A stretch of 64,000 nucleotides of DNA from Synechococcus sp. NOUM97013 (GTDB lineage: Bacteria > Cyanobacteriota > Cyanobacteriia > PCC-6307 > Cyanobiaceae). The stretch covers positions 620,001-684,000 of the forward strand of contig NZ_CP047941.1 of NCBI RefSeq assembly GCF_014279815.1, written 5' to 3'. Within the stretch, counting starts at the first letter, position 1. Every line of letters starts with the position of its first letter. The notes under the pieces are model-generated. The model was not told the DNA's origin. It made no database searches and was given only the letters and a program-made list of their open reading frames with translations. Of this stretch, positions 16,327-38,888 are shown piece after piece. The translations under genes were made by a program, and so were the position numbers.

Positions 16327-16413
16327 GGAGAGGTGGCAGAGTCCGGTTGATTGCGCACGACTCGAAATCGTGTAGGGGTCACACCCTCGTGGGTTCGAAT
16401 CCCACCCTCTCCG
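16327..16413 (+). tRNA. tRNA-Ser (anticodon CGA)
   Basis: The acceptor GGAGAGG pairs with CCTCTCC, the discriminator is G, the anticodon stem CACGA/TCGTG encloses CTCGAAA (CGA), a long variable arm is present and the T-loop is TTCGAAT. Length 87 nt is normal for class II serine tRNA. No CCA is encoded. The AT-rich island begins immediately after its 3' end. Confidence 0.95.
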
Positions 16414-20236: not shown

Positions 20237-21487
20237 ATGACTCATCTGACCGAAATGAAAGAGCCTTCCTACGATTACTTAGGGGTGATTGCAGCTTCAT
20301 CTGCTTTGGCTATCGGGGTAGGCCTGCAGAGGACAGAATTAGCTGTTCTTGGCAATATGATGGTTGAAGCTAAGTGGATTAATTCAGACAATATTGGACA
20401 ACTTGTAGGATTAAATTTAGCGGGATACCTTGCTGGATGTGTTCACCAAACAAGGATTAAACGTGAGGATCAGTCCCTTCGAATGATTCGAATTGCACTT
20501 GTTGTTTGTGTTCTCATATTTTTTATTGAACCGTTATTCCCATCCATGGGATGGAATACGATATGGCGCCTCGTTTCTGGTTGGGGTTGTGCACACTTAG
20601 TGACAGGGTTGCCTGGTTTCGGCACACGAAAACTACATCCTGATCAAAAGAGATTGGCGATGGGGATTATTTTTGCAGGTGCAGGGATAGCACCGCTTCT
20701 AGACTCTGTGATGCTCCCACTTTTTGTTAAAAGCTCGCCAGTTGCAGCTTGGGATTTTACCGGCCTATTCTCCATACTTTTTGCAATTCCAATTTGGTTG
20801 TTGATTTCTAGAGGATTAGCAGAAGAGAGAGAAGTAAAGTTGTCTAATCAAACGGATAACAACTCATCTTCATCATCTTCTCAAGATCATGCAAATGGAG
20901 GTGGAAGTGTCTCAGGAGCAGTTAACTGGTCTCCCGCATTGAAAATATTTGCACTGACAACACTTCTTTATGGTGCCTCCCAAGTTTCAATTTTAACCTA
21001 TCAGCCATTATACGTCACTTCAGTTTTTAAAGTATCAACTGAAGTCGCAAGTAATTCATTCGCTTTGGTTGGGTTTGGGTATACCTTAGGTGCCATCATC
21101 GCGGGATTAGTACCAAAGAAGATTCCAACAGATTCAGTTCTACTGGCTTCTGTTGTGATTGGAACGTTTGGAACTTGTCTATTTGTCTTTTCGCGAGTAC
21201 TTTCTATTGTTAATTTTGGAGCATTTCTTTTCGCTTTTTGGAACGGTGCATACATTGGATTAATCGTCGCTCGTCTCACAGAAGTTGTTGGTCCTCATGT
21301 CGTCCGACCTGCATGGGCCTTATTCAGCTTTTTGTTGAGCATTGGATTTGTATCAATGACATTCATCGCTGGATACATATCAACCTTTTCTGTGCCTTTG
21401 ATTTTTTATGTTGGCCTTGCACTTGTCGTGATTAATCTCATTCTCATGTCAATCACTGCGTACTCGTTCAAGAAGCAGAATCTCTAG
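20237..21487 (+). CDS. MFS transporter, YbfB/YjiJ-like
   Basis: This 416-residue protein has about twelve hydrophobic helices and a hydrophilic Ser/Asn-rich central loop (around residues 205-230) between two six-helix halves. N-terminal features AIGVGLQRTELAVLGNMM and WRLVSGWGCAHLVTGLPGF resemble the YbfB/YjiJ group of the major facilitator superfamily, with unknown substrates. It is 115 bases upstream of the giant oxidase gene in the same direction, so it probably exports the substrate or product of the cluster, or takes up its substrate. Confidence 0.8.
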   Translation: MTHLTEMKEPSYDYLGVIAASSALAIGVGLQRTELAVLGNMMVEAKWINSDNIGQLVGLNLAGYLAGCVHQTRIKREDQSLRMIRIALVVCVLIFFIEPLFPSMGWNTIWRLVSGWGCAHLVTGLPGFGTRKLHPDQKRLAMGIIFAGAGIAPLLDSVMLPLFVKSSPVAAWDFTGLFSILFAIPIWLLISRGLAEEREVKLSNQTDNNSSSSSSQDHANGGGSVSGAVNWSPALKIFALTTLLYGASQVSILTYQPLYVTSVFKVSTEVASNSFALVGFGYTLGAIIAGLVPKKIPTDSVLLASVVIGTFGTCLFVFSRVLSIVNFGAFLFAFWNGAYIGLIVARLTEVVGPHVVRPAWALFSFLLSIGFVSMTFIAGYISTFSVPLIFYVGLALVVINLILMSITAYSFKKQNL

Positions 21488-21602
21488 TTCTCAAAGAAAA
21501 GAGTTTTTGAACTAACTTTATTAACTTCTTAAGTCATGATTAAATCAAGTGATTAAAGATTAATGCTGGCTACGGTTAGATTATTCACTGTGATTTCTAG
21601 TT

Positions 21603-24600
21603 GTGAGTCAGTTTCGCATCGGCTCCCTCTACCCTGTCGACCGTGACGGGATCCCAAATGTATTTTTATCATCTGGATATAGCCTCGGACAGGATAGTAA
21701 TGGATTTTATATCAGCGAAAATGGTTCGAGTAACGGTTCTCTTAAGGCTCAGCTAGAAATTACGACAGATCCGGTTGATATTAAAAATGTAAGCGCTTTT
21801 ATTACTGATTGGCTCGTCCCTCAATTAACAAACAAGGATGATGAAAGTAGTATATTCAATCAATATCTGAAATCGATAACAAGTACTCCACCTTCGGGTG
21901 GATGGGGTGTTTATCCCAATAATGAGCTCTTGGAAGCACTTAGTTATATCGGTTATAGAGGTTATGGTTACGATCAAGCGGCTAACCAAACAGGTTTCTG
22001 GGCAGAAACATCCACGCCGTCTGGCTTGCTGTATCAGGAGGTATTGAAAAAGGACAATTATTTTCCTGAAGAGCTGTGGAGTAACGACAAGAAGATTGAT
22101 ACGATCTTATCTGATTTTGATAGTAATGCCCTTCTCAAAAATTTGGCGGTAATGAGTGGAGCCTCCGAGGAAATACCACCTCTTTGGTATCCATCAATGC
22201 TTTATACCTATGGTTTAAAGGGCAAAGGGACATCCTATCCAGGCCCCGTCTTAATGATTAAGCCTGGTGAGACTTTAGAGCTGGAATTTGATAACAACAT
22301 CAGTATTGCAGGCCTCACAGGAATGCAAGCTCAAATGGCGTCCCTGGTTGAGAATAATTCCTATGGGCTGAATGGCGGCTCGATGGCTGGCGCCATGGAC
22401 AGCACTAATTTTCATATGCATGGTGGTCATGTAACACCTACTGGATTCGGAGATAACGTTGTTAGTCGATATACAACGGGGCAAGATTGGACAACCATTA
22501 TTGATATTCCCGAAGATCATGGCAGAGGTTCTTACTGGTATCACCCCCATTTTCACCCAGCTGTTAATACACAAGTGTATGGCGGTTTATCTGGATTTAT
22601 GCAAGTTGGGGATCCCTTAAGTTTAATCCCTGCATTTAAAGATGTACCTAGAAACTTAGGTGTGATTAAGACGATGCAGGTTGGCATCGATCAAACATCT
22701 GGCGACTATCAACTCGCCGCAGTGAATGGCAATATCCTTGGCACAGAGGGGCTGGCTGCTAATCGGGCTAGTATGTTTACAATTAATGGTGAATATCAAC
22801 CAGAGGTTGATATCAAATCAGGCGGTTGGCAGTCGTTTAGTTTCAGCAATCAAGACAATAATTACTATATGAATATAGCAATGCGCCATCAAAAGGCTGA
22901 TGGTTCTTGGGTTGAGCTTCCACTTTATATTTATGGTGAAGATGGTCATACTTATCCTCAGATTCGCAAAGCGAGTCAGGGTGTATTAGGTTATCAACAA
23001 GCTGAGAATGCTATCAATGCGACTTCATATAAGCAAGCCTCAAATCTGATTTCTTTGCCTTCTGGAAAAAGACTCGATCTATTGGTCTATCTTCCCGCAG
23101 GTAAATCAGAATTGATCAGTGCCTATGGTTTTGAAGATGCAAATGGACAGGAGTTTGGTGTTAATAATCTACGTTGGCAACCCGATAAATATGCAGAGCT
23201 TTCAACTGAAAATACTGACTTTTCTGACCCTAACTCAGGCCCTGGAGCAATTGCTTCGTTTAATGTTAGTAGTGATTCCCCGGATCTAAATACTCAGGTT
23301 CTAGATAACTATATTGAACAGGCAAATCAGCAAATTAATGTTCAAGAAATAAGCCCACAAACAACTAGTGAAGACTATTCCTCGGATGCAATCCCCAGCG
23401 TTAACTTGTTTGAAAAGGATTGGAATCCTACCCGTCAACGCCAGTTCAATTGGCAAATTTTGCAATTAGTTGGTCCTGAAGATCAATGGGATATCCCCAC
23501 TCAAAAAGAAGTTGCTAAACGTGCAGGCACTGACTTCGCTGTCACCAAGCATGAATTGATTCCAACATCTCTCGATAATCCCTGGCTCGGTTATATCAAC
23601 CCTGACCTCATCAATGACCATGTTTTTCCTCAAGGCCCATTGGTGATTGCACAGCTTGGAACTATGGAAGAGTGGTCGCTGCGCAATTGGAATTGGGGCG
23701 GTAAGAGTGTTGCGAATGGTGGTTTCTTCACATCCCATCCCTTCCATATTCATGTTAATGATTATCAAGTCAAGCAAAGTGATAACGAGTTGCCTGATAA
23801 GCGTAATTTAGAAGATGTCACTCAACTTAATTCGTCAGGATATAATTATGTTGATAGTGCAGGAGTTAATTACAAGCTCGACCCACTTGTCGGTGAATTT
23901 GTTGCGATTGACGAGGCTCTGAATCCTAATTCATCGGATGATTTGTATACAACGGGCTATAATGAGACAACAATTAGGATGTTATATCAAGACTTTCTTG
24001 GTACGTATGTCCATCATTGTCACTTGCTCGAGCATGAAGATGCTGGGATGATGCAAGTTGTTTCGGTGATTGAAAACACTGATTCTAGCTGGATTATTCC
24101 TGCCGAATCATTTGGCTTAAACCAGAAAGGTCTTGTTTTACGTGAAGCTGATTCACTTGAACAAGTGACTCTTGATTTACAGCCGGAACTTAGCAATACA
24201 CTTCAGCGAACCCAAGTTGGTGATATCACTAATGACTTTGTTCAGGATATTATCTTGTCATTTGGTGGATTTAATGGCTCTTCTGGACAAGTTCGTATTT
24301 ATGATGGTTCTTCGTTGAAGAAGAATCAAGAAGCTGTTTTACTGTCTTCTTTTAGGCCTTATGAGGATTCAACGTTGTCGCCTTGGGCTTTTAATAGTGA
24401 TTTTACTGGTGATGGAAAGAGAGATTTAATCACTGCAGGATTTGTCAAGTCTCCAGATAAGGATAATCAAGTGAAACTTCCCGATTTGGAACTGATAGGT
24501 TGGCAGGCTAAAGAGACTAACTATGATTGGTCAAATCTATATAGTTACCGTCCTTGGGAAAATGTTGCTGATGCAAGTTCTATCCTGCTATCTAGTGATT

Positions 24601-26036
24601 CAACAGCTGTTGGTGTTGGAGACTATAATTTAGATAATTTTGATGATTATGCATTTGCTTATGTTGACCAAGGTGTTCTGAGGATCCGCATTCTTGACGG
24701 AGCGTCGGTTTCTCTGCTCAACCAGACTGGACAATTTGAGGGAGGTTATTTACCCGATACTGATATCTTAACGGACATTGAATATTCGCCAGCATCAACA
24801 TGCTGTTTCGATGACCTTAAGTCGCTTTCAATCACCTCAGGTTTTAATAGTTATTCTCAATCGGCAATTGAGAATCTCATTGTCACTGCAGAGTCGAAAT
24901 CTGGCCACAGTGAAGTGCTTACTTTTCAACTTAATTCTGGACACTTTATTGCCACAGGCTCAACTCAATCTGACGAGTCGAAGATGGATGGTCATAGCGA
25001 GATGAATGGTCATAGTGATATGGCTGGGGGGCAAGCCCATTCCGAACATGACCATAGTTCGCATCAAGGTCACATCATGTCGACGGCTTCTTTGGAAGGT
25101 GTCAATCAGGTTGGAGGTGCCTTTATGTTGAGCTTGACCAATCATCAATTGATTGAACCTGGTTTGTCGTCTGCGACTCCTACTTTTGCTGGTGCACTTG
25201 CAAATGGGGCTTTGGTTATTGATGATCGTTTGGTATTAAGTCAAGGTGCTTCTGATGGCGACTATTTCATCGGTAATCCATCTAGTTCTAACGATATGGC
25301 CAACAGTACACAGGATTTATATCTTAATCTTGAAGGAATTAATCGTGTCAATATTGATGATCTAACGGGGATTACTCAGCCTATACAAGAGAACCCGTTA
25401 TATGGATCAGTGATCTTTGATAATGCTGTCGATGCTGATCAACGCGTGAATCTCACATTATTGGCTTACCAAGCCTATACCAATACGATGATCAAACCCA
25501 GCGATTTGGCGACCCTATCAGTTGGGAATGAGCGTTCAGAATTGTCATCTCGCGATCTTGTTGATCGAATCCTCAATGACTACTCTGTTCAGGTTGAATC
25601 GTATTATGGTGAGAGCTTTGATGAGATGTCTATTGACTCAATTGCAAGAAAAGCTTTCAATACTCTTTATGATAGAAATCCATCCTCTGCTGAGTTGTCT
25701 ACTTTGAACTCTGCAGTCAAGAATGGATTGTCTAAAACTGACTTGCCAATGGCTATTTTACGTTCGACTAACGGCTTTGATACTTATCGAGTGGCCTTGT
25801 TGTCGGCTGCAAGCAAGTGGTCTCAAGCTCAATGGGGCACAAATTCTGTGATCGATGGAGATTTTGGTCAGGGCTTTGTCGCTAGAGCATCAAATTTTGA
25901 TAATCTCTCTAATCTTCTTCTTGGCTCTGGATTAGTCAGTGGTTGGGCAGAAGCTAATTCTTTGTTTGAACAATATAGAGATGATGTGCTGACGTCGTTG
26001 AGCGGGTCTCCGATCTCAGATACCGGTTTCTTTTAA
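21603..26036 (+). CDS. Giant multicopper oxidase with FG-GAP-like repeats and DUF4214 end
   Basis: This 1477-residue protein starts at GTG. Copper ligands of a laccase-type enzyme are complete: NFHMHGGHV (about 271), WYHPHFHP (about 313), SHPFHIHV (about 712) and VHHCHLLEHEDAGMM (about 804-818), which supplies type 1, 2 and 3 ligands. FG-GAP-like calcium-binding repeats follow (VGDITNDFVQDIILS, DFTGDGKRDLITAG, VGDYNLDNFDDYAFA). Then comes a His/Met-rich segment at about 1127-1158 (for example MDGHSEMNGHSDM) and a DUF4214-like C-terminus (about 1330-1400). No Sec signal peptide is seen, so a type I or other signal-less export route is likely. Ordinary laccases are 450-600 aa. Substrate unknown: phenolics, Mn(II), Fe(II) or Cu(I). 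Confidence 0.9.
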   Translation: MSQFRIGSLYPVDRDGIPNVFLSSGYSLGQDSNGFYISENGSSNGSLKAQLEITTDPVDIKNVSAFITDWLVPQLTNKDDESSIFNQYLKSITSTPPSGGWGVYPNNELLEALSYIGYRGYGYDQAANQTGFWAETSTPSGLLYQEVLKKDNYFPEELWSNDKKIDTILSDFDSNALLKNLAVMSGASEEIPPLWYPSMLYTYGLKGKGTSYPGPVLMIKPGETLELEFDNNISIAGLTGMQAQMASLVENNSYGLNGGSMAGAMDSTNFHMHGGHVTPTGFGDNVVSRYTTGQDWTTIIDIPEDHGRGSYWYHPHFHPAVNTQVYGGLSGFMQVGDPLSLIPAFKDVPRNLGVIKTMQVGIDQTSGDYQLAAVNGNILGTEGLAANRASMFTINGEYQPEVDIKSGGWQSFSFSNQDNNYYMNIAMRHQKADGSWVELPLYIYGEDGHTYPQIRKASQGVLGYQQAENAINATSYKQASNLISLPSGKRLDLLVYLPAGKSELISAYGFEDANGQEFGVNNLRWQPDKYAELSTENTDFSDPNSGPGAIASFNVSSDSPDLNTQVLDNYIEQANQQINVQEISPQTTSEDYSSDAIPSVNLFEKDWNPTRQRQFNWQILQLVGPEDQWDIPTQKEVAKRAGTDFAVTKHELIPTSLDNPWLGYINPDLINDHVFPQGPLVIAQLGTMEEWSLRNWNWGGKSVANGGFFTSHPFHIHVNDYQVKQSDNELPDKRNLEDVTQLNSSGYNYVDSAGVNYKLDPLVGEFVAIDEALNPNSSDDLYTTGYNETTIRMLYQDFLGTYVHHCHLLEHEDAGMMQVVSVIENTDSSWIIPAESFGLNQKGLVLREADSLEQVTLDLQPELSNTLQRTQVGDITNDFVQDIILSFGGFNGSSGQVRIYDGSSLKKNQEAVLLSSFRPYEDSTLSPWAFNSDFTGDGKRDLITAGFVKSPDKDNQVKLPDLELIGWQAKETNYDWSNLYSYRPWENVADASSILLSSDSTAVGVGDYNLDNFDDYAFAYVDQGVLRIRILDGASVSLLNQTGQFEGGYLPDTDILTDIEYSPASTCCFDDLKSLSITSGFNSYSQSAIENLIVTAESKSGHSEVLTFQLNSGHFIATGSTQSDESKMDGHSEMNGHSDMAGGQAHSEHDHSSHQGHIMSTASLEGVNQVGGAFMLSLTNHQLIEPGLSSATPTFAGALANGALVIDDRLVLSQGASDGDYFIGNPSSSNDMANSTQDLYLNLEGINRVNIDDLTGITQPIQENPLYGSVIFDNAVDADQRVNLTLLAYQAYTNTMIKPSDLATLSVGNERSELSSRDLVDRILNDYSVQVESYYGESFDEMSIDSIARKAFNTLYDRNPSSAELSTLNSAVKNGLSKTDLPMAILRSTNGFDTYRVALLSAASKWSQAQWGTNSVIDGDFGQGFVARASNFDNLSNLLLGSGLVSGWAEANSLFEQYRDDVLTSLSGSPISDTGFF

Positions 26037-26116
26037 CCCATTATAAAAAAATTATGAATTCTTGATTGCTGTCTATATGCAATGACTAAAGTCAAAATAT
26101 AGAGTCTTTCTTTTTC

Positions 26117-27664
26117 ATGAAGGCGTTTGACTATATAATTGTCGGTGCGGGAACCGCTGGGGCTGTGATTGCCTCTCGGCTAACAGAAGATGAAAATATC
26201 AAGGTGTTGCTTTTGGAGGCCGGCCCCCATTTCACCTCCATTGATGAAACCCCTCGAGACCTTTTGGATTCTCGGGCAGTTTCTGTAGAAGACCATGATT
26301 GGCACTACATCACCCAGGTCACTCCAGGGCGAGACTTCCCTTATGCCCGAGGGAAGGTCAGTGGTGGCTGCTCTGCTGTCAATGGTGTGATTTCTCTCAG
26401 GGGTCTCCCTCAAGATTTCAGGGCATGGGCTGCAGCTGGCAACACTGGCTGGGACTGGGAAGACATTTTACCCATGTATAAACGAATCGAAAACGATATC
26501 GATTTTGGATATGCCTCTTATCACGGTAGTTCTGGAAAGATTCCTATCCAACGTTTTAAACCCGATCAGTATTCACCAGTTGTCGCTGCTTTTAAAGAAT
26601 CGGCCATGGCCGATGGTTACGCCTGGGTGCCAGACCATAATCACCCCAATGGTTACGACGGCGTTGGGCCCATACCCATGAACCGAGCCGGGGATGGTTC
26701 ACTTCGTGTTTCCAGCTCTATCGCTTACCTCTTGGAAGCTCAATCCCGGCCGAATCTGACGATTAAAGACCGAACGATGGTCAATAAGGTTCTTTTCTCT
26801 GGTAAAGATGCCATCGGCGTCGAAGTGATCAACTCGGACGACTCGGTGGAAAGCATTTTTGGTGGAGAAGTGATTTTGAGTGCTGGTACGATCAATTCTC
26901 CTTCTATTCTCCTTCGCTCAGGTGTTGGTCCTGTTGATGATCTGGATCGGCTGAAGATTGACTGTGTTAATAATCTCCAAGGGGTTGGTAGCAACCTCAT
27001 TGATCACTCGCTCGCTGTTGTTGCTTCGTATCCAAAACCTGGGATCGTTAACGAGAGTGATGATGATGTTCAAATGGTGATTCATTACACGGCCCCCGGC
27101 AGCGCTCACATTAACGATATGCAAATTTATTGTCTCGGTAAATTAGGTGCCGAGCGTTTCCCAGGTGCTGATCCAACTCGAGGATTAATGTTTGGCACTG
27201 GTATTGTGATCAATCGACCCGAGTCCCGTGGTCGTGTCACATTGCAATCGTCTGATCCAAATCAGCAACCCCGTATTGACCATCGCTTAAATTCACATGC
27301 AGAAGACATGCGCAAGATGGTCGACGGGGTGCGGCGTGGCTATGAGTTACTTACTACAGGTGCACTTAAGGATATTTCTGAGGGAGTCGCCGTTTTAACC
27401 GATGATATGCTTAATGATACCAAGTTTATCGAGCAATACATTACTGATCGCTCTGCCACAATTTGGCATGCAGTTGGCACCTGCAAAATGGGCCCAGCTT
27501 CCGATAATCATGCTGTTGTTGATCCTTATCTAAAAGTTCATGAATGTAGCTCCTTAAGAGTTGTCGATTGCTCAATTATTCCAGACCATGTCTCTCGCAA
27601 TCCAATGCTGACCTGTTACGCCATAGCTGAAAGACTGGTCGACATCATCAGGGCCGGTCACTAG
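26117..27664 (+). CDS. GMC-family FAD-dependent alcohol/choline oxidoreductase
   Basis: This 515-residue protein has the FAD dinucleotide fold at the N-terminus (YIIVGAGTAGAVIASRL, then LLLEAG), the GMC motif GKVSGGCSAVNGVISLRG, and the C-terminal catalytic block with His in IWHAVGTCKMGP (about 449) and Asn in SRNPMLTCYAIAE. Length and motifs match choline dehydrogenase and aryl-alcohol oxidase relatives. It lies 80 bases after the giant oxidase, in the same direction. As an oxidase it could provide hydrogen peroxide or quinone turnover beside a laccase-type enzyme, as in fungal systems; this is inference. Confidence 0.9.
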   Translation: MKAFDYIIVGAGTAGAVIASRLTEDENIKVLLLEAGPHFTSIDETPRDLLDSRAVSVEDHDWHYITQVTPGRDFPYARGKVSGGCSAVNGVISLRGLPQDFRAWAAAGNTGWDWEDILPMYKRIENDIDFGYASYHGSSGKIPIQRFKPDQYSPVVAAFKESAMADGYAWVPDHNHPNGYDGVGPIPMNRAGDGSLRVSSSIAYLLEAQSRPNLTIKDRTMVNKVLFSGKDAIGVEVINSDDSVESIFGGEVILSAGTINSPSILLRSGVGPVDDLDRLKIDCVNNLQGVGSNLIDHSLAVVASYPKPGIVNESDDDVQMVIHYTAPGSAHINDMQIYCLGKLGAERFPGADPTRGLMFGTGIVINRPESRGRVTLQSSDPNQQPRIDHRLNSHAEDMRKMVDGVRRGYELLTTGALKDISEGVAVLTDDMLNDTKFIEQYITDRSATIWHAVGTCKMGPASDNHAVVDPYLKVHECSSLRVVDCSIIPDHVSRNPMLTCYAIAERLVDIIRAGH

Positions 27665-27700
27665 TTTCTTCTCAATTCGCCATCTGTTTTTCCTCATCAC

Positions 27701-28081
27701 ATGTCTCTGATCTCTTCTGATTCCAATACGTGGGTTTCTTGGACAATAACTTGTTCTTGTAAGCCAGATTCATTTGCACAAATTTCTGCGCTTGCAGCCA
27801 AAATGACTGAGTATTTTCAGTCCAATGAACCCGACACCACTAATTTCGAATTCAGTGTTAATCCTGCCCATGACGAAGTTCATGTGTATGAGCGTTATGC
27901 TAACTCTGCGCAGGCACTCCTCCATATGAAGGCTTTTGGAGACATGTTCGGCTCTGATTTCATGGGTCTTTTGACTCCTGTCAAGGTCGTAGCCTACGGC
28001 TTTCCAACTGAGGAGTTGTCGAACGCTCTAAGTGCTCTTTCACCTGTCAAGATGACTTCTTTCCAAGGTTTCTGCCGATAA
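27701..28081 (+). CDS. ABM-like small monooxygenase domain protein
   Basis: This 126-residue protein has features of the antibiotic-biosynthesis-monooxygenase (dimeric alpha/beta barrel) fold: an early SWTITCSCKPDSFAQISAL strand-helix and the pattern VHVYERYANSAQALLHMKAF near the middle. Such proteins oxidise polyketides or quinols without cofactors, or degrade haem. It begins 36 bases after the GMC gene and ends before a terminator-like hairpin. The match is by pattern only, so the fold is likely but the activity is not established. Confidence 0.6.
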   Translation: MSLISSDSNTWVSWTITCSCKPDSFAQISALAAKMTEYFQSNEPDTTNFEFSVNPAHDEVHVYERYANSAQALLHMKAFGDMFGSDFMGLLTPVKVVAYGFPTEELSNALSALSPVKMTSFQGFCR

Positions 28082-28110
28082 GAATTTCGCTCCTATCACA
28101 CTTTTAAACT

Positions 28111-28147
28111 GCCTTGTCACCATCGCATTGCTTTGGTGGCTTTTTTT
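28111..28147 (+). terminator. Probable terminator after the GMC/ABM genes
   Basis: CACC (28118-28121) pairs with GGTG (28135-28138), followed by GC and a run of seven T. The stem is short but the T-run is strong. It would end the operon that begins with the MFS gene. Confidence 0.45.
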
Positions 28148-28299
28148 ATTCAGTTGTTTCGGGCACCTTGTTGTTTTTTGAAGAATTCATTATATCTTCT
28201 TTACGATTTGATTTCATGCTGTCTTCCTCAGTCTTCAAATCCTAATCTGTTGGCTTCTTTTTACGTTTTGCCTAAAGTGAAAGAAGTTGCTCACTGTTC

Positions 28300-28668
28300 A
28301 TGAAGCGTACTGACTCCTTTATCAGCATTTATCCTCTTTTCCGCGTGAAGGATGGTCAAATGGCTGCTATTAAAAAGATCACGGATGAAATTATCTCCCG
28401 TGGTCATGGCGAGGAAGGCACACTGTTATTTACAGCTGCATTTAGTGATACTCATTTGTTCCTCAGAGAAAGCTATGTTGACCACAAAGCTTTTCATGTT
28501 CATCTCGATACTGTCAAAGATATTTTGGATGAATTCTTCTCGCTGCTTGATCTGGAAAGCCTTGTTATTGTCGCCAGTGCTGATGATATTCAAAAAATGA
28601 AACTTGAGATGAAGACTCTCGGCATGGAAGCTACTTATTGTGTCATTAATAATGGATTTTCAATTTAG
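28300..28668 (+). CDS. Second ABM-like small protein
   Basis: This 122-residue protein has FISIYPLFRVKDGQMAAIKK at the N-terminus and FLRESYVDHKAFHVHLDTV in the middle, the same arrangement as the protein at 27701 and as ABM-domain proteins. It is separated from that gene by a terminator-like hairpin, so it may have its own promoter in 28148-28299. It faces convergently the second giant oxidase gene. Activity not established. Confidence 0.55.
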   Translation: MKRTDSFISIYPLFRVKDGQMAAIKKITDEIISRGHGEEGTLLFTAAFSDTHLFLRESYVDHKAFHVHLDTVKDILDEFFSLLDLESLVIVASADDIQKMKLEMKTLGMEATYCVINNGFSI

Positions 28669-28729
28669 CAGTCATTTTTTAGGACTATTAAGTGAGTAGA
28701 TTTTTATCTAATTTGTCTTTTGATAGACG

Positions 28730-31700
28730 TTATGCCCAGCTATAGTAATCAGCTTGCAAACCCCAAGTGGCTTGCCTGTTAACTCCCTCACCGTGATACA
28801 CCGCACTTTTGGTTAAGTGCATAAGTGTTGCATTGCCATCATCTTGCGTTAAAAGCAAGCTTCCCTGCCCCCTATTATCTGCATCAATATCAAAATATTG
28901 AAAATCTATATCTATATATCTATTGTTCAACGTGATTGCTCCATTCATTAATAACTCAGTAACCTGACTGCCTTGATGCTTTTCTATTTTTGATGGATTT
29001 GTTATTTCATCCTCCATGCTCATCATGCTACTTTCTCCACTTTTATTGCTCATATTCATCATGCTATGTTCATTATCATGATTATTAGAACCATGACCAG
29101 CATGAGCACCTTCTGCTGAATTAAGTAGCCAGTTCTTAATTTCTGAATTGTTACCTTTTGATTTTGAATCAACCACCATAGTTGATAAATTAGCCAAGTA
29201 GGTCTGGTTATACTTCTCATCTATGAACTTATATTCTTCACCATCAGGTGCCTGTGGTTGCTCATCTGGAAGTGAATAACCAATCGCTATGCGAACAGCA
29301 TTATTAGTATTTCCATGTGGTTTAAAATATGATGAGTTATCCCAAAGTTTTGCCATACTTGAGAGCTTCTCGTCTTCGCACCCTGCGGCAGAATGATCCG
29401 TTAGTTTCTTTCCATTGAAGCCATCTACGATGCCCTCCCCACCTTCGAGTTGGCTAACAATGATATCTGCAAAGTTATCACCATTCATGTCTCCTACAGC
29501 AAGATCAATTCCATCGCTTTTTGCCCCATTGAAGGGCGTTAAGCAATAGAGTTCCTCATAATTTGCCCCACTAAAGACACGAATCTTTGTATCGTAGTTC
29601 TTACCTGAAATACCAACGATGATGTCGTCATAACCATCACCATTAACGTCGCCTAGTGCCAGGGCTGATTTTAAGTTTTCTCGGTTTCCTTTTCCTTCTG
29701 CGCTTATTGTTAACTCTTTCAATCTTTTCAGTGTTTCTAATTTTGGATCATTCCCCCTTAGCTTCTCTTCGTAAAAATCTTTCGCACTCTGCCCGTCGAA
29801 AATATTTAATTTGAACTTTCCTTTATTTGTAGATGTGGCCTCAATTACCGCCAGATCTTCAATGTTATCGGTTACATGGACTGTTCTAGCTTCTGGCCCG
29901 GGCACAAAGTTCAATGCATTGATATCCCCACTGTCGATGTTCACTCCATTTGATCGTGAATTCTCAAATGGCTTGAATTCAATCTTATTTTCCCGGTTCG
30001 ATCCAAGTGATAGTTCAACGCTGCCCTTTCTTGGCGAACCATTCGTGATCCAGCTGTCGTTGGTATTGAGGATGGTCAACACGGGCACCATCATTCCTGA
30101 ATCTTCATGGAACAACAAGTGGCAGTGATCGACATACAAGCCGGTAAAGTCTTCAAATCGAACCAAAATATCGGTTTTTGAGTCTATTAAATATCCTTTT
30201 GGTGGTGATCCATCGGATCCCCAATTTTTTCCATTGCCGTCGATGTAGTTCCCTTCTTCGTCAAGAATCATTGGTGTGCCATATGGATTTCCTGTTGTTG
30301 CAGTTCCCTTGGCATAGGCCGGTCCCATTTGGAAGACATCGATTACTGAATCTCCTACATATGCATCACCAACTTGATTTGTATCAGGATCAATTCCTAC
30401 ATTTAGGCCATTAATTGTTTCAACAATGAATTCATTTTGATGCAGATGAAAAGGATGGGATTGCCCTATTTCTATCTGTGTTACTGGGGCTTCTACAGGC
30501 CAATTTGCCCTTTTTGTTGATTTTGAAGCATTGACGAGTGACCAGCGCTCCAATGTGTCCAACATTGCAATTGTTATTGTTGGACTCAGCGCTGGTTTGG
30601 TTGACCAATATTGTTGGTTAATTCTCCATAACCCCTCAAAACCCACCGGTTCATTAAATCCGGGATCATCATATTCCTCGCCGTCAGGACCAATTTTTGG
30701 TCCACTGCTCTCTTCTTCAAAAGTTCCGCCTGTCCTCCAAGTAAATGTTCTTGATCGAGCTACCCCCGATGTTGCAGCTTCCTCCTTGAGTCCAATTGCA
30801 TGATCTCTTTGCCCATCCAGATAGTCCCAAGCATCAGGCTGATTAGAAGTGTCTACGGTCGATCCTGTAACTTCTACTGTGGCTAAGACCTGAGATGGTG
30901 TAATTTGAAAGCCGTCATTATACCCAAGATACGTTTCGCTAGAATTTTTGGGCCTATTTGATGCAATAGGTGCTAAGTCTTCGAGTACTTCTTTGCTTGC
31001 ATTGCTAATAAAGTAATATTCGCCTGGTTTGTCAAAGGAATGCTGGATTGTTACCCTTCCACCCGGTGATATCAGCGGCAATGTTGACACAGAGGTGTCG
31101 TATTCCGAAGACCATCGCGAAATATCTGAATCGATACCCAATAAGTTTGGCGATTCTAAGCTTATGTTTCCGTCACTATCAACACGAATCAACTGAATTA
31201 TGTGACTGGAATTCAAAGAGAAATTCAGAAAGCCAAATGTGACCCACTCACCTGTATTGGCTTTAATTGTTGGGTTGTATTGTCCGTTGACTGTATGTAT
31301 TAAATTCTCGTTTGGTTCGGCTGCGACAACAGATCCATATGTACTACTTGGATTCAGTGGCTGGTTATTCTGCCCATTGAAAGGTGCAGATGCATACTTG
31401 TAAAAGCTAGTTCCGTTATCATCAAATATCCTCGCAGGCATTTGTTTTGTGTTTACCCAGTTGTTTCTTCCCTGTACAACATTGGGATTAATCTCTTGTT
31501 CTACCGCCCATGATTGTAAACTTAATAGGTGAATATTTTCTTTTGTCGGATCATATCCACTGAGATTGTTTGTATCTTCCGAGTCTGGCAAGATGAACAC
31601 CGGCAATGCTGCCCCGCCAGATAACGATAATGCAGTTGAGCCATGTAGATGTGGATGCATCCAAAGCAATCCACTGGGATGATTTTCTGGAATTTTGTAT

Positions 31701-32293
31701 TCATATTCTCTACTTTCACCATTCCCTAAGGTAATCATAACGTTATCACCATAACCTTGAGGTGATACGTGGGAGCCGTGCAAATGGAGGTTAGTACTAT
31801 CTGCTACTCCATTCCACTCATTTGTTTGTGAATCTATGCCAAGGTTGTTTGTTAACTTGACTTTTATCGTATCTCCTGGATCAGCGATGATGACAGGTCC
31901 TGGCGTCTGACTGTTGTACAGCCAGAATTCATTGTCGTAAATGCTCTGTGAGAATTCCTTCCTCACTCTTATTTCGCCAAAACCATCTATCGTAATTTTG
32001 TTGTGAGATGCCAGTGATAAATCAATATTGACGACATTAAATTCTGGTCCCCAACTTGAAAAGAATGTCCCACTCTTATTTGTTTGTTGATAGATACCCT
32101 TCTCGTGTTCACTATTCCCCTTTTGCCAATCCAGCCAACCGCTTGCGATGTTGACGACGCCTTGATGTTGTGGCAGTACGTTGAGGTATGCGCTATCTTG
32201 AGCAATTCCTGTTAGTCCTACATTCGCCGACCATTTTTTAAAATTTTTCTGGCCGATCGTTTTTGCATTACGCAGGCTTTTGAGGTTTGCCAC
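28730..32293 (-). CDS. Giant multicopper oxidase, paralogue 1 of a tandem pair
   Basis: This 1187-residue protein has all laccase-type copper motifs: NLHLHGSHVSP (about 169-179), WMHPHLHGS (about 211-219), QSHPFHLHQNEF (about 612) and YVDHCHLLFHEDSGMMVP (about 720). FG-GAP-like repeats follow (ALGDVNGDGYDDIIVG, AVGDMNGDNFADIIVS), then a His/Met-rich segment at about 1062-1094 (AHAGHGSNNHDNEHSMMN). The N-terminal AKTIGQKNFKKWS is shared with the neighbour and there is no Sec signal. It is very similar along its whole length to the gene at 32495, so the two arose by duplication. The export route and substrate are unknown. Confidence 0.9.
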   Translation of the reverse strand: MANLKSLRNAKTIGQKNFKKWSANVGLTGIAQDSAYLNVLPQHQGVVNIASGWLDWQKGNSEHEKGIYQQTNKSGTFFSSWGPEFNVVNIDLSLASHNKITIDGFGEIRVRKEFSQSIYDNEFWLYNSQTPGPVIIADPGDTIKVKLTNNLGIDSQTNEWNGVADSTNLHLHGSHVSPQGYGDNVMITLGNGESREYEYKIPENHPSGLLWMHPHLHGSTALSLSGGAALPVFILPDSEDTNNLSGYDPTKENIHLLSLQSWAVEQEINPNVVQGRNNWVNTKQMPARIFDDNGTSFYKYASAPFNGQNNQPLNPSSTYGSVVAAEPNENLIHTVNGQYNPTIKANTGEWVTFGFLNFSLNSSHIIQLIRVDSDGNISLESPNLLGIDSDISRWSSEYDTSVSTLPLISPGGRVTIQHSFDKPGEYYFISNASKEVLEDLAPIASNRPKNSSETYLGYNDGFQITPSQVLATVEVTGSTVDTSNQPDAWDYLDGQRDHAIGLKEEAATSGVARSRTFTWRTGGTFEEESSGPKIGPDGEEYDDPGFNEPVGFEGLWRINQQYWSTKPALSPTITIAMLDTLERWSLVNASKSTKRANWPVEAPVTQIEIGQSHPFHLHQNEFIVETINGLNVGIDPDTNQVGDAYVGDSVIDVFQMGPAYAKGTATTGNPYGTPMILDEEGNYIDGNGKNWGSDGSPPKGYLIDSKTDILVRFEDFTGLYVDHCHLLFHEDSGMMVPVLTILNTNDSWITNGSPRKGSVELSLGSNRENKIEFKPFENSRSNGVNIDSGDINALNFVPGPEARTVHVTDNIEDLAVIEATSTNKGKFKLNIFDGQSAKDFYEEKLRGNDPKLETLKRLKELTISAEGKGNRENLKSALALGDVNGDGYDDIIVGISGKNYDTKIRVFSGANYEELYCLTPFNGAKSDGIDLAVGDMNGDNFADIIVSQLEGGEGIVDGFNGKKLTDHSAAGCEDEKLSSMAKLWDNSSYFKPHGNTNNAVRIAIGYSLPDEQPQAPDGEEYKFIDEKYNQTYLANLSTMVVDSKSKGNNSEIKNWLLNSAEGAHAGHGSNNHDNEHSMMNMSNKSGESSMMSMEDEITNPSKIEKHQGSQVTELLMNGAITLNNRYIDIDFQYFDIDADNRGQGSLLLTQDDGNATLMHLTKSAVYHGEGVNRQATWGLQADYYSWA

Positions 32294-32494
32294 AACTCAT
32301 CTTACTTTTCCATATTTTAAGAGAATAACCTCTACTGTCTTCATTAGTTCATAGTTTATTCATTTTTAATGTTTCATTTTCTTCGCTATAGTTTCCTTTC
32401 TCATCGACAATCATTAGTGCTCCAAGATAATTGCGAAGTGATGATTTCAAAATCACCACTTCTTATGTGACTAGATATTTAGGGCATCAGTCCC

Positions 32495-35400
32495 TCACCA
32501 TCCAAACGCTTCTAGTACAAAATCATAGGCACTATTCATTTCCGCAGTTTTAAGGTGTAGTAGTGTTTTTAAACCATTGTCCTGTGTCAGGAGCAAGCCG
32601 CCCTCTCCCCTCTGATTAGGCTGAATATCAAAGTAATTAAAATCGATATCTGTATAGAGTCCTTCCAAGACAAATTTTCCATTGGAGACTAAATCGTCTG
32701 GTGTGATTTTCTCCATTCCCATTGACGTCATTGGATTGATGAGTTCATCGTGCATCATGCTGTGTGCAGTGTCTTCACTATCTGAGCCATGCCCTGCATG
32801 AGCTCCATCTTTCGATTTATACAGCCAGTTTTTAACAGTTGTTTTTTCAACCGCTGTACCTGTAATGACCTCTAATGTTGATAAATTTGCCAAATATGTT
32901 TGATTATGCATGTTGTCCATGAATTGATAATCGGCACCAGACGGTTGCTCATCCGGGAGCGAATAGCCAATGGCGACTCGTACGGCGTTACTTGTTTTGC
33001 CATGTGGATTGAATGGAGTGTCCCAGAGTTTGCTCATGCTTGATTGCATCATTGAGTTCTTGTTGTCGGCTAAGTGATCTGTCAGTTTTTTTCCATTAAA
33101 GCCATCAACAAGTCCTTCCCCGTCCTCAAGTTGGCTAACAATAATATCTCCATAGTTGTCTCCATTAATGTCTCCAATTGAAACATCAATACCGTTGCTC
33201 AATGCTCCATCGAATGGTGTTAGACTATAAAGTTCCTGATAATTTTTGCCGCTGAAAACACGTATTTCGGGCTTATACCCATTCCCCGAAATTCCAACAA
33301 CAATCTCATCATACCCATCTCCATTGATATCCCCAACTGCAATTGATGATTTTAAATTTTGGCCACTATCCTGGCTGTTTGCATTGATTGTTATCTCTTT
33401 CAGTTTTTCTAGCGAACTTAAGGCTGGATCTTTGCCATTGATTTTGTTTGAATAGTAATCCTTCACGCTCTGACCATCAAAAACATTTAATTTGAATGCA
33501 CCTGTGTTTGATGACGTGGCTTCAATGACTGCAATATCTTCGATGTTGTCGCTGACATTGACTGTTCTCGCTTTGGGGCCAGGCTCAAAGTTCAATGCAT
33601 TGATATCACCACTAGCGACATTGACACCCGTTGATAATGTTTCTGCAAATGGTTGAAATTGGATCGTATTCCCTTTGTTAGAACCTAGAGACAAATCAAT
33701 GCTGTTGCTTGTTGTTGATCCACTTGTAATCCAACTATCATTGGTGTTGAGGATGGTTAATACTGGTACCATCATTCCACCATCTTCATGGAATAATAGG
33801 TGGCAGTGATCGACAAACAGCCCTGTGAAGTCTTCGAAACGAACCAGGATGTCGGTCTTTGAATTTGTCAGATATCCATCTGGTGCGAGTCCATTCGGTT
33901 TAGAGTCAGGCCCCCAGTTATTTCCATTGCCATCAATATAATTTCCACTTTCATCCAAAATCATTGGTGTCCCAAATGGATTGTCTGATGTTGCACTGCC
34001 TGTAGCATAAGCAGGCCCCATTTGATAGACATCAACCAATGAATCACCGACGAAGGCATCTCCAACTTTGTTTTGTTTAGGTGTTGTTCCCACTTGTAAA
34101 CCATTAATTGTTTCGACTATGAATTCGTTTTGGTGCAGGTGAAATGGGTGTGATTGCCCTATCTGAATTTCAGTTCTGGGTTTCTCTGTTGGGTACTTAT
34201 CTCGTTTGACGGATTGTGAACTGTTGACCAGCGACCATCTCTCCAATGTATCTAACATTGCAATGGAGATTGTTGGACTTTGGGTTGCTTTGTGCGTCCA
34301 CCATTGTTTGTTGATTGTCCATACTCCTTCCCAGTCTTCTGGGTCGTTGTATCCAGGATCAACGTATACAACCCCATCCGGAGTCGTTCGTGTTTGGCGA
34401 TCTTTTTCCACTGGAATTGCTGGCGGGTATGTGTTCCACACAAACTCTCTGCTTCTATCCACTCCAGATTTTGCTGCTTCCTCTTTGAGGCCGAGTGCGT
34501 GTGCTCTCTGTTTCTCTAGGTAGTCCCAAGCATCAGGTTGATTTGAACTTTGAAATTTGCTTCCTGATACATCGACTGTTGCTAAAACTTGCGACGGTGT
34601 GATTTGAAAACCGTCATTGTATCCAAGGTACGTTTCGTTTGAATTTTTCGGCCTATTTGTTTCGATTGGAGCTAAATCACCGAGGACTTCATCGCTTGCA
34701 TTGCTAATAAAATAATAACTGCCAGGCTTGTTAAACGCATGCTGGATGGTGATTCTTCCACCGGGCGATATTCCTGGAAGGGTGGTTACTGAGGTGTCAT
34801 CATCAGATGCCCAACGCGAAATATCGGAATCGATTCCCAACAGGTTGGGTGATTCCAGCGTTAGGTTGCCATCTTCGTCGGCATGAACAAGTTGAATCAC
34901 ATGGCTTGAATTCAATGAAAAATTGAGAAATCCAAAGGTGACCCATTCACCTGTATTTGCGTTAATGGTTGGATTGTATTGCCCATTAACTGTATGGATC
35001 AAATTTTCGGTTGTTTCAGCAGCCACGTAGTCTGCATAGGTGGCACCACCCGTTTTAAATATGTCAGTATCTGTAAAAAATGCCAGTGGTTGATAATTGT
35101 TCCCATTGAAAGGAGCTGATCCATACTTGTAAAAGCTGTTTCCATCCTCCTGAAAAACCCGTGGGGGCATTTGTTTTGTGTTTTCCCAATTGTTTTCCCC
35201 AGGCGTAACACTTGGATTGTTTTCTTGTTCAACCGCCCATGACTGCAGGCTGAGAAGATGGATGTTCGATGTTGTTGGATCGTAGTCGTCTAAATTGTTA
35301 GTATCTTCTTTATCGGGCAATACAAAGACCGGTAAAGCGGCTCCACCTGCCAATGAGAGTGATGTTGTGCCGTGCAGATGCGGATGCATCCACAGTAAAC

Positions 35401-36022
35401 CGCTCGGATGATTTTCTGGGATTTGATAGATATATTCTTGGCTGTCACCATTTTCGACAGCAATCATCACGTTGTCACCCTTGCCTTTGGGCGACACGTG
35501 TGAGCCATGCAAATGCAGGTTGGTGCGCTTAGCTAGTGAATTCCATTCCTCTGTTTGAGCATCGACAGTCAAATTATTGCTTAACTTAACTCTTATTGTG
35601 TCTCCTGGGTCTGCAACGATGATTGGTCCTGGTGTTTGGCCGTTGTACACCCAGAACTCATTGTCATAGATGCTTTTTGAAAACTCTTCGCGTGTTCTTA
35701 GTTCACCAAATCCGTCGATTGATATTTTGTTTTGGGATGCAAGTGATAGATCTACGCTGACTTCGTCGAATTTTGGTCCCCAGCTCGAGAAAAATGAACC
35801 TTGCTTATTTGTCTTTTTATACTTACCGTTTGCATGCAATTTGTTTGCTTCCTGCCAATCAAGCCATCCACTTCTTATGACAATATCCTTCTCGTGCTGC
35901 GGAAGCACATTTAAATATCCACTTTTTTGTGGATCACTTGATAACCCTGCATTTTTCGACCACTCTTCAAACTTCTTCTGGCCAATGGTTTTTGCATTGA
36001 GCAGGTCTTGAAAGCTTGCCAT
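32495..36022 (-). CDS. Giant multicopper oxidase, paralogue 2 of a tandem pair
   Basis: This 1175-residue protein has the same architecture as the gene at 28730: NLHLHGSHVSPKG, LLWMHPHLHGTTSLS, QSHPFHLHQNEF (about 625), FVDHCHLLFHEDGGMMVP (about 737), FG-GAP-like VGDINGDGYDEIVVG and IGDINGDNYGDIIVS, then a shorter His/Met segment (HAGHGSDSEDTAHSMMH) near 1070. Differences cluster between cupredoxin domains and at the C-terminus. The 201-base gap to its partner has no obvious terminator, so co-transcription from the 36 kb side is possible. No signal peptide. Confidence 0.9.
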   Translation of the reverse strand: MASFQDLLNAKTIGQKKFEEWSKNAGLSSDPQKSGYLNVLPQHEKDIVIRSGWLDWQEANKLHANGKYKKTNKQGSFFSSWGPKFDEVSVDLSLASQNKISIDGFGELRTREEFSKSIYDNEFWVYNGQTPGPIIVADPGDTIRVKLSNNLTVDAQTEEWNSLAKRTNLHLHGSHVSPKGKGDNVMIAVENGDSQEYIYQIPENHPSGLLWMHPHLHGTTSLSLAGGAALPVFVLPDKEDTNNLDDYDPTTSNIHLLSLQSWAVEQENNPSVTPGENNWENTKQMPPRVFQEDGNSFYKYGSAPFNGNNYQPLAFFTDTDIFKTGGATYADYVAAETTENLIHTVNGQYNPTINANTGEWVTFGFLNFSLNSSHVIQLVHADEDGNLTLESPNLLGIDSDISRWASDDDTSVTTLPGISPGGRITIQHAFNKPGSYYFISNASDEVLGDLAPIETNRPKNSNETYLGYNDGFQITPSQVLATVDVSGSKFQSSNQPDAWDYLEKQRAHALGLKEEAAKSGVDRSREFVWNTYPPAIPVEKDRQTRTTPDGVVYVDPGYNDPEDWEGVWTINKQWWTHKATQSPTISIAMLDTLERWSLVNSSQSVKRDKYPTEKPRTEIQIGQSHPFHLHQNEFIVETINGLQVGTTPKQNKVGDAFVGDSLVDVYQMGPAYATGSATSDNPFGTPMILDESGNYIDGNGNNWGPDSKPNGLAPDGYLTNSKTDILVRFEDFTGLFVDHCHLLFHEDGGMMVPVLTILNTNDSWITSGSTTSNSIDLSLGSNKGNTIQFQPFAETLSTGVNVASGDINALNFEPGPKARTVNVSDNIEDIAVIEATSSNTGAFKLNVFDGQSVKDYYSNKINGKDPALSSLEKLKEITINANSQDSGQNLKSSIAVGDINGDGYDEIVVGISGNGYKPEIRVFSGKNYQELYSLTPFDGALSNGIDVSIGDINGDNYGDIIVSQLEDGEGLVDGFNGKKLTDHLADNKNSMMQSSMSKLWDTPFNPHGKTSNAVRVAIGYSLPDEQPSGADYQFMDNMHNQTYLANLSTLEVITGTAVEKTTVKNWLYKSKDGAHAGHGSDSEDTAHSMMHDELINPMTSMGMEKITPDDLVSNGKFVLEGLYTDIDFNYFDIQPNQRGEGGLLLTQDNGLKTLLHLKTAEMNSAYDFVLEAFGW

Positions 36023-36814: not shown

Positions 36815-36871
36815 GCGCCAAGCATCGTGAGCTGGGCGACTGACGGCAACGGCCTGAGAAACTTCTTGACT

Positions 36872-37768
36872 ATGCGGTCGCGTTCTGAGACCTTGTTGGA
36901 TCTGGCCTGTGGACGGCCTTTGTCCCTGTGCCGTTGCCGTTTCTGGCCCTTGGTACCTGACGAACGCAAGGCTTTGAGGTTGATTGGAGTGAGACAAGAG
37001 GGACAGTTTTTGGCGAGTTCCTCGCGTCGTTCAGGTCTTCCGACAACACCCTCAAAGCTGAGGCGCCAGGCGTCACGTCGCCACCTCGCTTTAATTTCTG
37101 CACCACCTTCGAGCCTTCCGGCAGTTTCGCTGGTGCGTCGTCAGAGCCGCTTAGGTCGCTCCCTGAAGCGCACTGGTGATGTGTTGTTTTCGATGGCTGT
37201 TCTCGGAATCGGGTCGCCTCTGTTCTTGCTGCTCGCTGCTCTGGTCAAGCTCAGTTCTCCGGGACCTGTTTTTTACGTTCAAAAGCGAGTCGGACGGGGA
37301 TACCGCCGCTTTGGGTGCATCAAGTTCCGCACCATGCGCCCTGATGCAGATGCTGTGCTGGCCCAGGTGTTGGAGCGATCTCCTTCGATGCGTGAGGAAT
37401 TCGAGCGCGATTTCAAGCTGCGTGATGATCCCCGCATCACTCCGATCGGTCGCTTCCTGCGTCGCTCCAGTCTGGATGAGCTTCCACAGTTTCTCAATGT
37501 TCTGCGCGGCGAGATGAGCGTGGTCGGTCCCCGCCCGATCGTTGCCAAGGAGATTGAGCGTTATGGCATGTACATGGATGAGGTGCTCGCGGTTCGACCT
37601 GGCTTGACTGGACTCTGGCAGGTCAGTGGACGCAACAACCTCAGCTACCCGAAACGGGTTCGCTTGGATCTGGCCTATGCCCGAGGCCGTTCGGTGCTGC
37701 TCGATCTGGCCATCATCCTGCGCACTTTTGGTGTGTTACTTCTCCCGATGGATCGAGGCGCCTACTGA
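36872..37768 (+). CDS. Bacterial sugar transferase (undecaprenyl-phosphate sugar phosphotransferase)
   Basis: The catalytic domain is clear: KRTGDVLFSMAVLGIGSPLF (membrane hairpin), SSPGPVFYVQKRVGRGYRRF, GCIKFRTMRPDAD, RRSSLDELPQFLNVLRGEMS, VGPRPIVAKEIERYG and RPGLTGLWQVSGRN. This is the WcaJ/RfbP/ExoY type, which starts lipid-linked glycan assembly by transferring a sugar-phosphate to undecaprenyl phosphate. The family core begins near 37160, so about 95 upstream codons are atypical and the true start may be a later GTG or TTG (36980-37133). It likely starts surface polysaccharide synthesis, to which the FkbM and deacetylase/formyltransferase genes could contribute. Confidence 0.85.
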   Translation: MRSRSETLLDLACGRPLSLCRCRFWPLVPDERKALRLIGVRQEGQFLASSSRRSGLPTTPSKLRRQASRRHLALISAPPSSLPAVSLVRRQSRLGRSLKRTGDVLFSMAVLGIGSPLFLLLAALVKLSSPGPVFYVQKRVGRGYRRFGCIKFRTMRPDADAVLAQVLERSPSMREEFERDFKLRDDPRITPIGRFLRRSSLDELPQFLNVLRGEMSVVGPRPIVAKEIERYGMYMDEVLAVRPGLTGLWQVSGRNNLSYPKRVRLDLAYARGRSVLLDLAIILRTFGVLLLPMDRGAY

Positions 37769-37817: not shown

Positions 37818-38888
37818 CTACGAGAGCCAGAGGGTGCATCCGAGCGCCATCAGCAGCCAGAGCATTTCCAATCTCCTGCTGAGATTGAGGATGGTTTCCA
37901 CACTTTGCTTGCTGGCGCCTTGGAAGCCATTCCCGAGCAATGGCTTGTCAACCCAGCCAGCCTCGTATCGGTTCCGACCCCCGAGTTGCACTTCGGCGCA
38001 GTGGGCATAAATCGCTTCGGAGCGTCCGGCATTGGGAGAAGGGTCATGCTGCCCATCGCGCTCTGCGGCCAGCACGAGCGATGCCCATCGGTCAATGGTT
38101 TGACTGACCAGAGGCAGGGTCAGCATCACCAGTCGACAGGGGATCCATATCAGCAGGTCATCCAGACGCGCACCTGCCGTGCCAAGCCAGCGCAGGCGTC
38201 CCTTGCGGTAACCCAGCATGGAATCCAGTGTGCTGGCTGCTTTGAACGACCAGGCCAGAGCGAGCGGCCCCGGTGCGTTCGTCAGTCCCGCTGACCAGAG
38301 CCCAAGCCCCACGAGCATCCAGAACAAGGGCGCGAACAGGCCATCCACGGCATTTTCACTGGCCGTTTCCGCTGTGGCGCGGAGGATCTCGTCCACGCTG
38401 AGCTCCGTGGTGTCACGGCCCACGATCCAGCTGAGACGTTGACGGGCCTCGATCGGCTCTGCATTTCGCTCGGCTGGAAGGGCCTGAAGCACGCGGCGAG
38501 CTCCGTCTTCCAGGCTTTTTCCGGCCAGGGCGCTGGCCAGGGCTAGAACCCAGCACGCGCTGGCAAGAATGTTGACCCAGCCATGGCTGCCGGCACTGTC
38601 TCCCAGAAACTGTTGTCCTGGTAGCAGTTCTCCAAGCATCAATTGTTCCAGCAGCCAACCACTGATTCCGCTCCCCATTACCAGCGTGACGGTGATGAGG
38701 TACCCGGCGATCGATAGCTTGAGCGGCTGATCCATTGCCCAGTTCTCGGCTTTCAGGCGCATCTGTTTGATGCCCCAGCCCATCACGACCACGGGATGGA
38801 GCCAGCTGGCTGGATCGCCAATGCTGCGATCCAGCACCGCTGCCAGAAGAATGCCTGTCGCTGCAAGCGTTGACGTCTGCAAGCTCAT
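37818..38888 (-). CDS. cbiB: Adenosylcobinamide-phosphate synthase CbiB/CobD
   Basis: This 356-residue membrane protein has family features ILLAAVLDRSIGDPASWLHP at the N-terminus, HPVVVMG, AETASENAVDGLFAPLFW and YRKGRLRWLGTAGARLDD. It attaches the aminopropanol arm to cobyric acid in cobalamin (pseudocobalamin in picocyanobacteria) synthesis. It overlaps the upstream membrane protein gene by four bases and faces the sugar transferase gene convergently. Confidence 0.92.
   Translation of the reverse strand: MSLQTSTLAATGILLAAVLDRSIGDPASWLHPVVVMGWGIKQMRLKAENWAMDQPLKLSIAGYLITVTLVMGSGISGWLLEQLMLGELLPGQQFLGDSAGSHGWVNILASACWVLALASALAGKSLEDGARRVLQALPAERNAEPIEARQRLSWIVGRDTTELSVDEILRATAETASENAVDGLFAPLFWMLVGLGLWSAGLTNAPGPLALAWSFKAASTLDSMLGYRKGRLRWLGTAGARLDDLLIWIPCRLVMLTLPLVSQTIDRWASLVLAAERDGQHDPSPNAGRSEAIYAHCAEVQLGGRNRYEAGWVDKPLLGNGFQGASKQSVETILNLSRRLEMLWLLMALGCTLWLS

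Follow-up and report, generated by a model that had tools for sequence, protein, structure and literature searches.

The stretch analysed here, called the window throughout, is a 64-kb part of the genome of Synechococcus sp. NOUM97013 (G000; one contig, 2.55 Mb). Between window positions 20237 and 36022 it carries seven genes, three of which encode giant multicopper oxidases (MCO-A, MCO-B and MCO-C). All seven open reading frames are intact, with the boundaries that an earlier note on this DNA had given them:

20237..21487, + strand: MFS carrier (MFS_4, YbfB-like; 416 aa), assigned by Pfam; first gene of the presumed operon
21603..26036, + strand: MCO-A (1477 aa), laccase-type multicopper oxidase with FG-GAP propeller, His/Met-rich stretch and helical C-terminal domain
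26117..27664, + strand: GMC-family flavin adenine dinucleotide (FAD) oxidoreductase (515 aa), assigned by Pfam
27701..28081, + strand: ABM1 (126 aa), small ABM-like protein below the Pfam cut-off
28300..28668, + strand: ABM2 (122 aa), small ABM-like protein with a weak phmmer match to MupZ
28730..32293, - strand: MCO-B (1187 aa), laccase-type multicopper oxidase with FG-GAP propeller and His/Met-rich stretch; paralogue of MCO-C (68%)
32495..36022, - strand: MCO-C (1175 aa), architecture as MCO-B; clusters with the only B/C-type gene of genome G141

The oxidases are members of the laccase-type family with an integrin-like propeller. Cu-oxidase_3 and Cu-oxidase_2 passed the Pfam cut-offs in all three, by which only the first and last cupredoxin domains were recovered, and the motifs HxH, HxH, HPFHxH and HCHxxxHxxxxM are present. 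All three oxidases have the full set of 12 copper ligands (10 His, 1 Cys, 1 Met), which bears out the three giant enzymes with complete laccase-type copper sites that the earlier note had described. Ligands were likewise complete in 14 of 16 aligned rows (seven in alignment A1, nine in A3); the other two rows, both distant, come from G177 and G144, whose oxidases (L079 8752-13080; L080 7157-11701) have Gln instead of the axial Met at the type 1 copper and, ahead of the last motif, a long insertion. FG-GAP passed its Pfam cut-off in MCO-B and MCO-C and stayed below it in MCO-A (18 vs 22.1 bits). MCO-A is laid out as a laccase-type region (residues 193-830), a propeller (850-1110) and a His/Met-rich stretch (1128-1167), all boundaries being approximate. 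Its profile could be aligned (100% probability) with that of MCO-B and MCO-C across 702 columns that run from the oxidase core into the propeller.

A structure model of the C-terminal half of MCO-A had a predicted local distance difference test (pLDDT) score of 67.7, with the blocks of the helical domain mostly at 81-94 and low confidence for the His/Met-rich stretch between propeller and helical domain. In Foldseek searches, integrin headpieces were the best matches of this half (E 1.7e-5); 18 matches had E ≤0.001, several of them to other propeller proteins, and the propeller match was read as generic. Past the propeller of MCO-A, 11 of 40 residues are His or Met, a density higher than in all 500 shuffles. 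A DUF4214-like C-terminal domain was considered and rejected, as Pfam does not show it.

The carrier and the flavoprotein proposed for the set were confirmed by Pfam (MFS_4; GMC N- and C-terminal domains above the cut-offs of PF00732 and PF05199). For the two small proteins the genes stood, and the ABM label is weak: ABM1 scored 16.5 bits against a PF03992 cut-off of 23.1, and ABM2 had no Pfam match at E 0.1 and a weak phmmer match to MupZ (E 0.023).

At the same site, G141 (same genus) carries a sugar transferase gene, one B/C-type oxidase gene, ABM2, ABM1, GMC, MCO-A, MFS, tRNA-Ser and comEC (comEC, cobD and glyQ are names that we take the genes to have from their protein sequences). The order MFS, MCO-A, GMC, ABM1, ABM2, MCO(B/C) is common to both genomes, which agrees with the earlier view of giant laccase-type oxidases grouped with redox genes in one island. 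Identity to the G141 proteins was 96% for GMC, 91% for MFS, 90% for ABM1, 84% for MCO-A, 76% for MCO-C and 73% for ABM2. The genes are under purifying selection where this was measurable, with ratios of nonsynonymous to synonymous substitution rates (dN/dS) of 0.054 for MFS, 0.113 for MCO-A, 0.026 for GMC, 0.027 for ABM1, 0.107 for MCO-C and, against the single B/C-type gene of G141, 0.097 for MCO-B; synonymous sites of ABM2 were saturated and its dN/dS was not measurable. Values of dS were 0.73-1.67 (MFS, MCO-A, GMC, ABM1, MCO-C) and 2.47 (MCO-B), and are rough at this height. Six neighbouring genes had a dS of 0.27-0.53 (one over 85 codons only) and the sugar transferase gene 0.93. Given the raised dS, the module is old at the site, or was exchanged, or evolves faster. 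In the tree, MCO-C grouped with the G141 gene (99/99) and MCO-B branched outside both; the duplication that gave MCO-B and MCO-C therefore looks older than the split of G000 and G141, and G141 would have lost the second copy or never had it.

The site itself is bounded by the following features:

16327..16413, + strand: tRNA-Ser(CGA), left edge of the hotspot; the same tRNA adjoins the comEC gene in G141
36827..37768, + strand: bacterial sugar transferase, right neighbour, common to G141
37818-38888, - strand: cobD (presumed name), next gene after the sugar transferase

The genus sample comprises 31 genomes, of which 24 reach 90% completeness or more. A cobD gene was located in all 31, a comEC gene in 30. 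Where both lay on one contig (n=27; G209, G210 and G212 were left out for different contigs, G218 for an unmatched comEC), the interval between them ranged from 1.4 to 21.5 kb, the longest being that of the window genome and the second that of G141. The stretch from comEC/tRNA-Ser to cobD is therefore an insertion hotspot. GC content is 0.404 at 16414-36500, compared with 0.646 for comEC and 0.617 for the 37-64 kb part of the window; from this low GC and the low dN/dS against the relative, the gene set is not a chance one. The set had been placed beside tRNA-Ser, which holds for the region; the MFS gene lies 3.8 kb off, and genes for an FkbM methyltransferase and PhyH (Pfam) sit in this gap, neither with a match in the G141 copy of the site. 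Integration at the 3' end of the tRNA was considered and rejected: its last 25 bases do not recur in the window (≤3 mismatches), no integrase was noticed among the island genes, and both integrase genes found belong to another island. That second lower-GC island (3493-13400) is flanked by menG-like and glyQ-like genes and holds phage-integrase genes at 3493-4866 and 7318-8100, together with formyltransferase-like and polysaccharide deacetylase genes. Promoter-like sites in the window did not exceed shuffles (34 vs 40.8), and terminator-like sites barely did (17 vs 14.3).

Relatives were searched in the genus sample, in 201 genomes of the family and in 388 of the class. The ABM1 and GMC searches covered the family sample, outside which 21 of the genus members lie; ABM2 and MFS were left out of genome searches. 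Full-length MCO-A-type genes were found in 4 of 31 genus genomes (G000, G141, G216, G202) and B/C-type giants in two (G000, G141). In the family, each oxidase query matched 41 of 201 genomes. Giants were present in ten of these: in G000 and G141, with MCO-A types in G120, G054 and G069 (44-48%) and, distantly, G177 and G144, and B/C types in G112 (two genes), G061 and G186 (39-42%); the remaining 31 genomes had shorter frames only (<800 aa among the matches listed). MCO-A matched 113 of 388 class genomes. Outside the family, full-length MCO-A relatives in G506 and G488 and B/C-type giants in G410 and G381 were among the matches listed. GMC matched 125 of 201 family genomes, with 35% for the best full-length match after G000 and G141; ABM1 matched four, two of them weakly (G067, G095). 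A conserved ABM1-ABM2 pair in small-genome relatives was considered and dropped: both queries match one 117-aa gene per genome (G067, L112 8188-8541; G095, L113 8463-8816), and the adjoining 125-aa gene matches neither. When named genome contigs were scanned once, six distant loci came up at 25-33% identity (e.g. Kuenenia, Streptomyces, Chlorobiota), with the set in none (four of the six mapped). Viral contigs, scanned twice with two short peptide patterns each time, yielded no relative.

The MCO-A relatives of G216 and G202 are about 1750 aa long (L110 8962-16510; L111 9188-16692), with an N-terminal extension that includes DUF4114 in that of G216, and a Cu/Zn superoxide dismutase gene lies near them. 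No match to GMC, ABM1 or ABM2 was obtained in the 20-kb stretches round either gene. Contig C68 of G069 (L074, L075) has a gene map that is its own mirror image and two MCO-A copies, perhaps an assembly artefact.

Among B/C-type relatives, a glyoxalase-fold gene adjoins the giants of G061, G186 and G112 (L077 11414-13831; L078 12459-15042; L076 7514-8248). In G061 and G186 a TolC-type OEP gene follows beyond it, one gene from the oxidase, and the oxidases end in C-terminal RTX repeats; in G112 an EthD gene lies near. The oxidase of G410 has a C-terminal DUF4114 and an adjoining OprB porin gene. MCO-A relatives have other neighbours. MNIO genes (PF05114; enzymes of the MbnB/TglH type) adjoin them in G054, G069, G506 and G488 (L073 7679-14006; L074 1687-8073; L130 5995-12319; L131 7440-13609), accompanied by DUF2063 genes in G054 and G069; beside that of G120 lies a fragment of an MNIO gene that carries a stop codon. 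G216 and G202 have their MNIO genes far from MCO-A. No precursor peptide gene was noticed beside MCO-A relatives. In 18 hand-picked genomes, PF05114 was found in 7 of 9 MCO-A carriers (6 without the G120 fragment) and in 1 of 9 others (7 vs 1, one-sided hypergeometric 0.0076), and 2 of 14 control genomes have it as well. G506 and G488 are closely related to each other, as are G216 and G202; G177 and G144 were left out. This association is a lead and not a test. An excerpt of PMC12452194 ties MNIO enzymes to copper-binding bufferins and mentions proposed protein substrates. By term search, its main text has no word beginning with 'cyanobacteri', 'copper oxidase' or 'laccase', and no 'multicopper oxidase'. 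Action of the MNIO enzyme on MCO-A itself was held unlikely, because the single Cys of the G069 relative sits at the copper site.

Several known systems share features with the island. The best solved match of both oxidase profiles was the Thermus thermophilus laccase 2xu9, followed by 3zx1, which we take to be a Campylobacter multicopper oxidase. Bacterial laccases have the same four motifs; they are 439-481 aa long, whereas the window oxidases have 1175-1477 aa, they lack the propeller and C-terminal parts, and only parts of the core are matched, the first domain best of all. With CueO and CopA the oxidases have in common the multicopper core, a His/Met-rich stretch and a possible copper role, but they score 16-54 bits against NCBIfam cut-offs of 479 and 525, and no signal peptide is seen in them by eye. 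MNIO/bufferin clusters (PF05114 with DUF2063) resemble the four loci where MNIO adjoins MCO-A relatives, and have no counterpart in G000 or G141. MopA-type Mn-oxidising heme peroxidases are large and have a hemolysin-type calcium-binding part, according to an excerpt of PMC6247904. This part was likened to the RTX repeats of the two B/C-type relatives; MopA uses heme and a different catalytic domain, in contrast to copper in the window oxidases. Copper-tolerance island genes of strain CC9311 are reportedly the topic of one earlier paper. No description of these giant oxidases was found among the literature matches listed, and no paper joining multicopper oxidase, FG-GAP and cyanobacteria. The main texts of the picocyanobacterial genome-island papers PMC7522525 and PMC2441476 contain neither 'multicopper' nor 'copper' (term search).

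An extracellular role of the oxidases is plausible from their sequences and relatives. No signal peptide was evident by eye in the printed N-termini (inspection only); the residues GFF end all seven rows of the C-terminal MCO-A alignment; and, as said, two B/C-type relatives carry RTX repeats and lie near TolC-type genes. An ABC exporter and HlyD pair is encoded elsewhere in the G000 genome (C1:89209-94655), next to a protein with a weak RTX-like match below the cut-off. The extracellular oxidation system that had been suggested for the island is plausible on these indirect grounds.

The reading preferred here, with a probability of about 0.42, is that copper-dependent oxidases are exported and act on Cu(I) and/or phenols, and that the GMC/ABM/MFS set is their partner inside the cell. 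We infer export, substrate, operon and common function as follows. The oxidative module sits in the tRNA-Ser insertion hotspot. The three oxidases, which show no evident Sec/Tat signal, would be exported, most probably by a type I secretion machine, and at or beyond the cell surface would use O2 to oxidise phenolics and/or a reduced metal, for which Cu(I) is the likeliest candidate. Propeller and His/Met-rich stretch may serve attachment and copper binding. The GMC protein, the ABM-like pair and the MFS carrier share their coding strand with MCO-A; their task would be the oxidation and transport of a related small organic molecule inside the cell, possibly an aromatic alcohol or quinol. The oxidases may have a copper role, given the His/Met-rich stretch of MCO-A and the MNIO genes beside other MCO-A relatives.

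A number of observations weigh against this reading. The His/Met density was within the shuffle maximum in MCO-B (10 vs 11) and MCO-C (9 vs 9), the densest stretch lies elsewhere in several relatives, and a model of MCO-C built from 7 sequences was poor (pLDDT 44.9) and was set aside. The GFF end is missing from two distant rows, and the matches of G506 and G488 end at MCO-A residue 1389. Pfam showed no RTX repeats in the window oxidases (no HemolysinCabind match) and no type I secretion genes among the island genes. HlyD-family matches of G000 did not reach the curated cut-off, which was also the case for 7 of 10 genomes tried; a loose HlyD search was positive in 13 of 14 controls too. A terminator-like site (28120-28139) separates ABM1 from ABM2. 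PF05114 is absent from G000, as it is from G141. The whole set was found in 2 of 31 genus members (G000 and G141); elsewhere MCO-A occurs without GMC or ABM genes nearby, B/C types likewise, and G067 and G095 have the ABM-like gene without an MCO-A match. The set thus recurs as a unit in 1 of 30 other genus members, and its parts occur apart outside G141. Independent occurrence in relatives is what the earlier note had named as speaking against its proposal, and outside G141 it is largely what was found. A single obligate pathway is unsupported because the parts occur apart there, and the data support a lineage-specific module instead.

The main rival, somewhat improbable in our view, takes the island as accessory cargo, in which oxidases, GMC/ABM/MFS genes and flanking genes came separately and, though united by a hotspot and a history, have no joint function. 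The parts found independently in other genomes, the 1.4-21.5 kb range of site length in 27 genomes and the position of MCO-B and MCO-C on the strand opposite to the other set genes are as this would predict. The same order at the same site in G141 despite long divergence (dS 0.73-1.67 vs 0.27-0.53 in six neighbouring genes) and the low dN/dS where measurable speak against cargo. A further reading, which we consider unlikely, makes MCO-A part of an undescribed cyanobacterial copper-handling system: an exported giant with a propeller would be accompanied in most carriers examined by the MNIO (DUF692) enzyme, of the kind acting on ribosomally synthesised and post-translationally modified peptides (RiPPs), and the window lineage would have swapped MNIO for GMC/ABM/MFS and a second oxidase type.

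Next after cargo, tailoring of a secreted or imported aromatic was considered, with GMC and ABM-like proteins oxidising the compound, laccases coupling or polymerising it outside and MFS transporting it. Among solved structures, GMC matches alcohol, HMF (hydroxymethylfurfural), choline, pyridoxine and aryl-alcohol oxidases; ABM2 is weakly MupZ-like, and the multicopper oxidases weakly match o-aminophenol oxidase/phenoxazinone synthase. Against these likenesses, no enzyme building a scaffold for a secreted compound was noticed among the island genes, the ABM label is sub-threshold, and matches to named oxidase families are far below cut-offs, so that tailoring appears rather unlikely. Least probable, and by a wide measure doubtful, is oxidation of Mn(II) or Fe(II) in the manner of MnxG. 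This would fit the giant size and the O2-dependent chemistry of multicopper oxidases, and MnxG, itself very large, has a pair of accessory proteins, about 12 kDa in size (excerpt of PMC5622069), as the island also has two small neighbours; the small proteins were set side by side by description, and those of the island are weakly ABM-like.

Through the MNIO neighbourhood of the relatives, giant oxidases can be connected in a testable way with copper-binding peptides. To our knowledge, marine picocyanobacteria have not been credited with large exported copper oxidases. If the enzymes act outside the cell, a primary producer would be linked to extracellular copper, manganese or phenolic turnover at sea.

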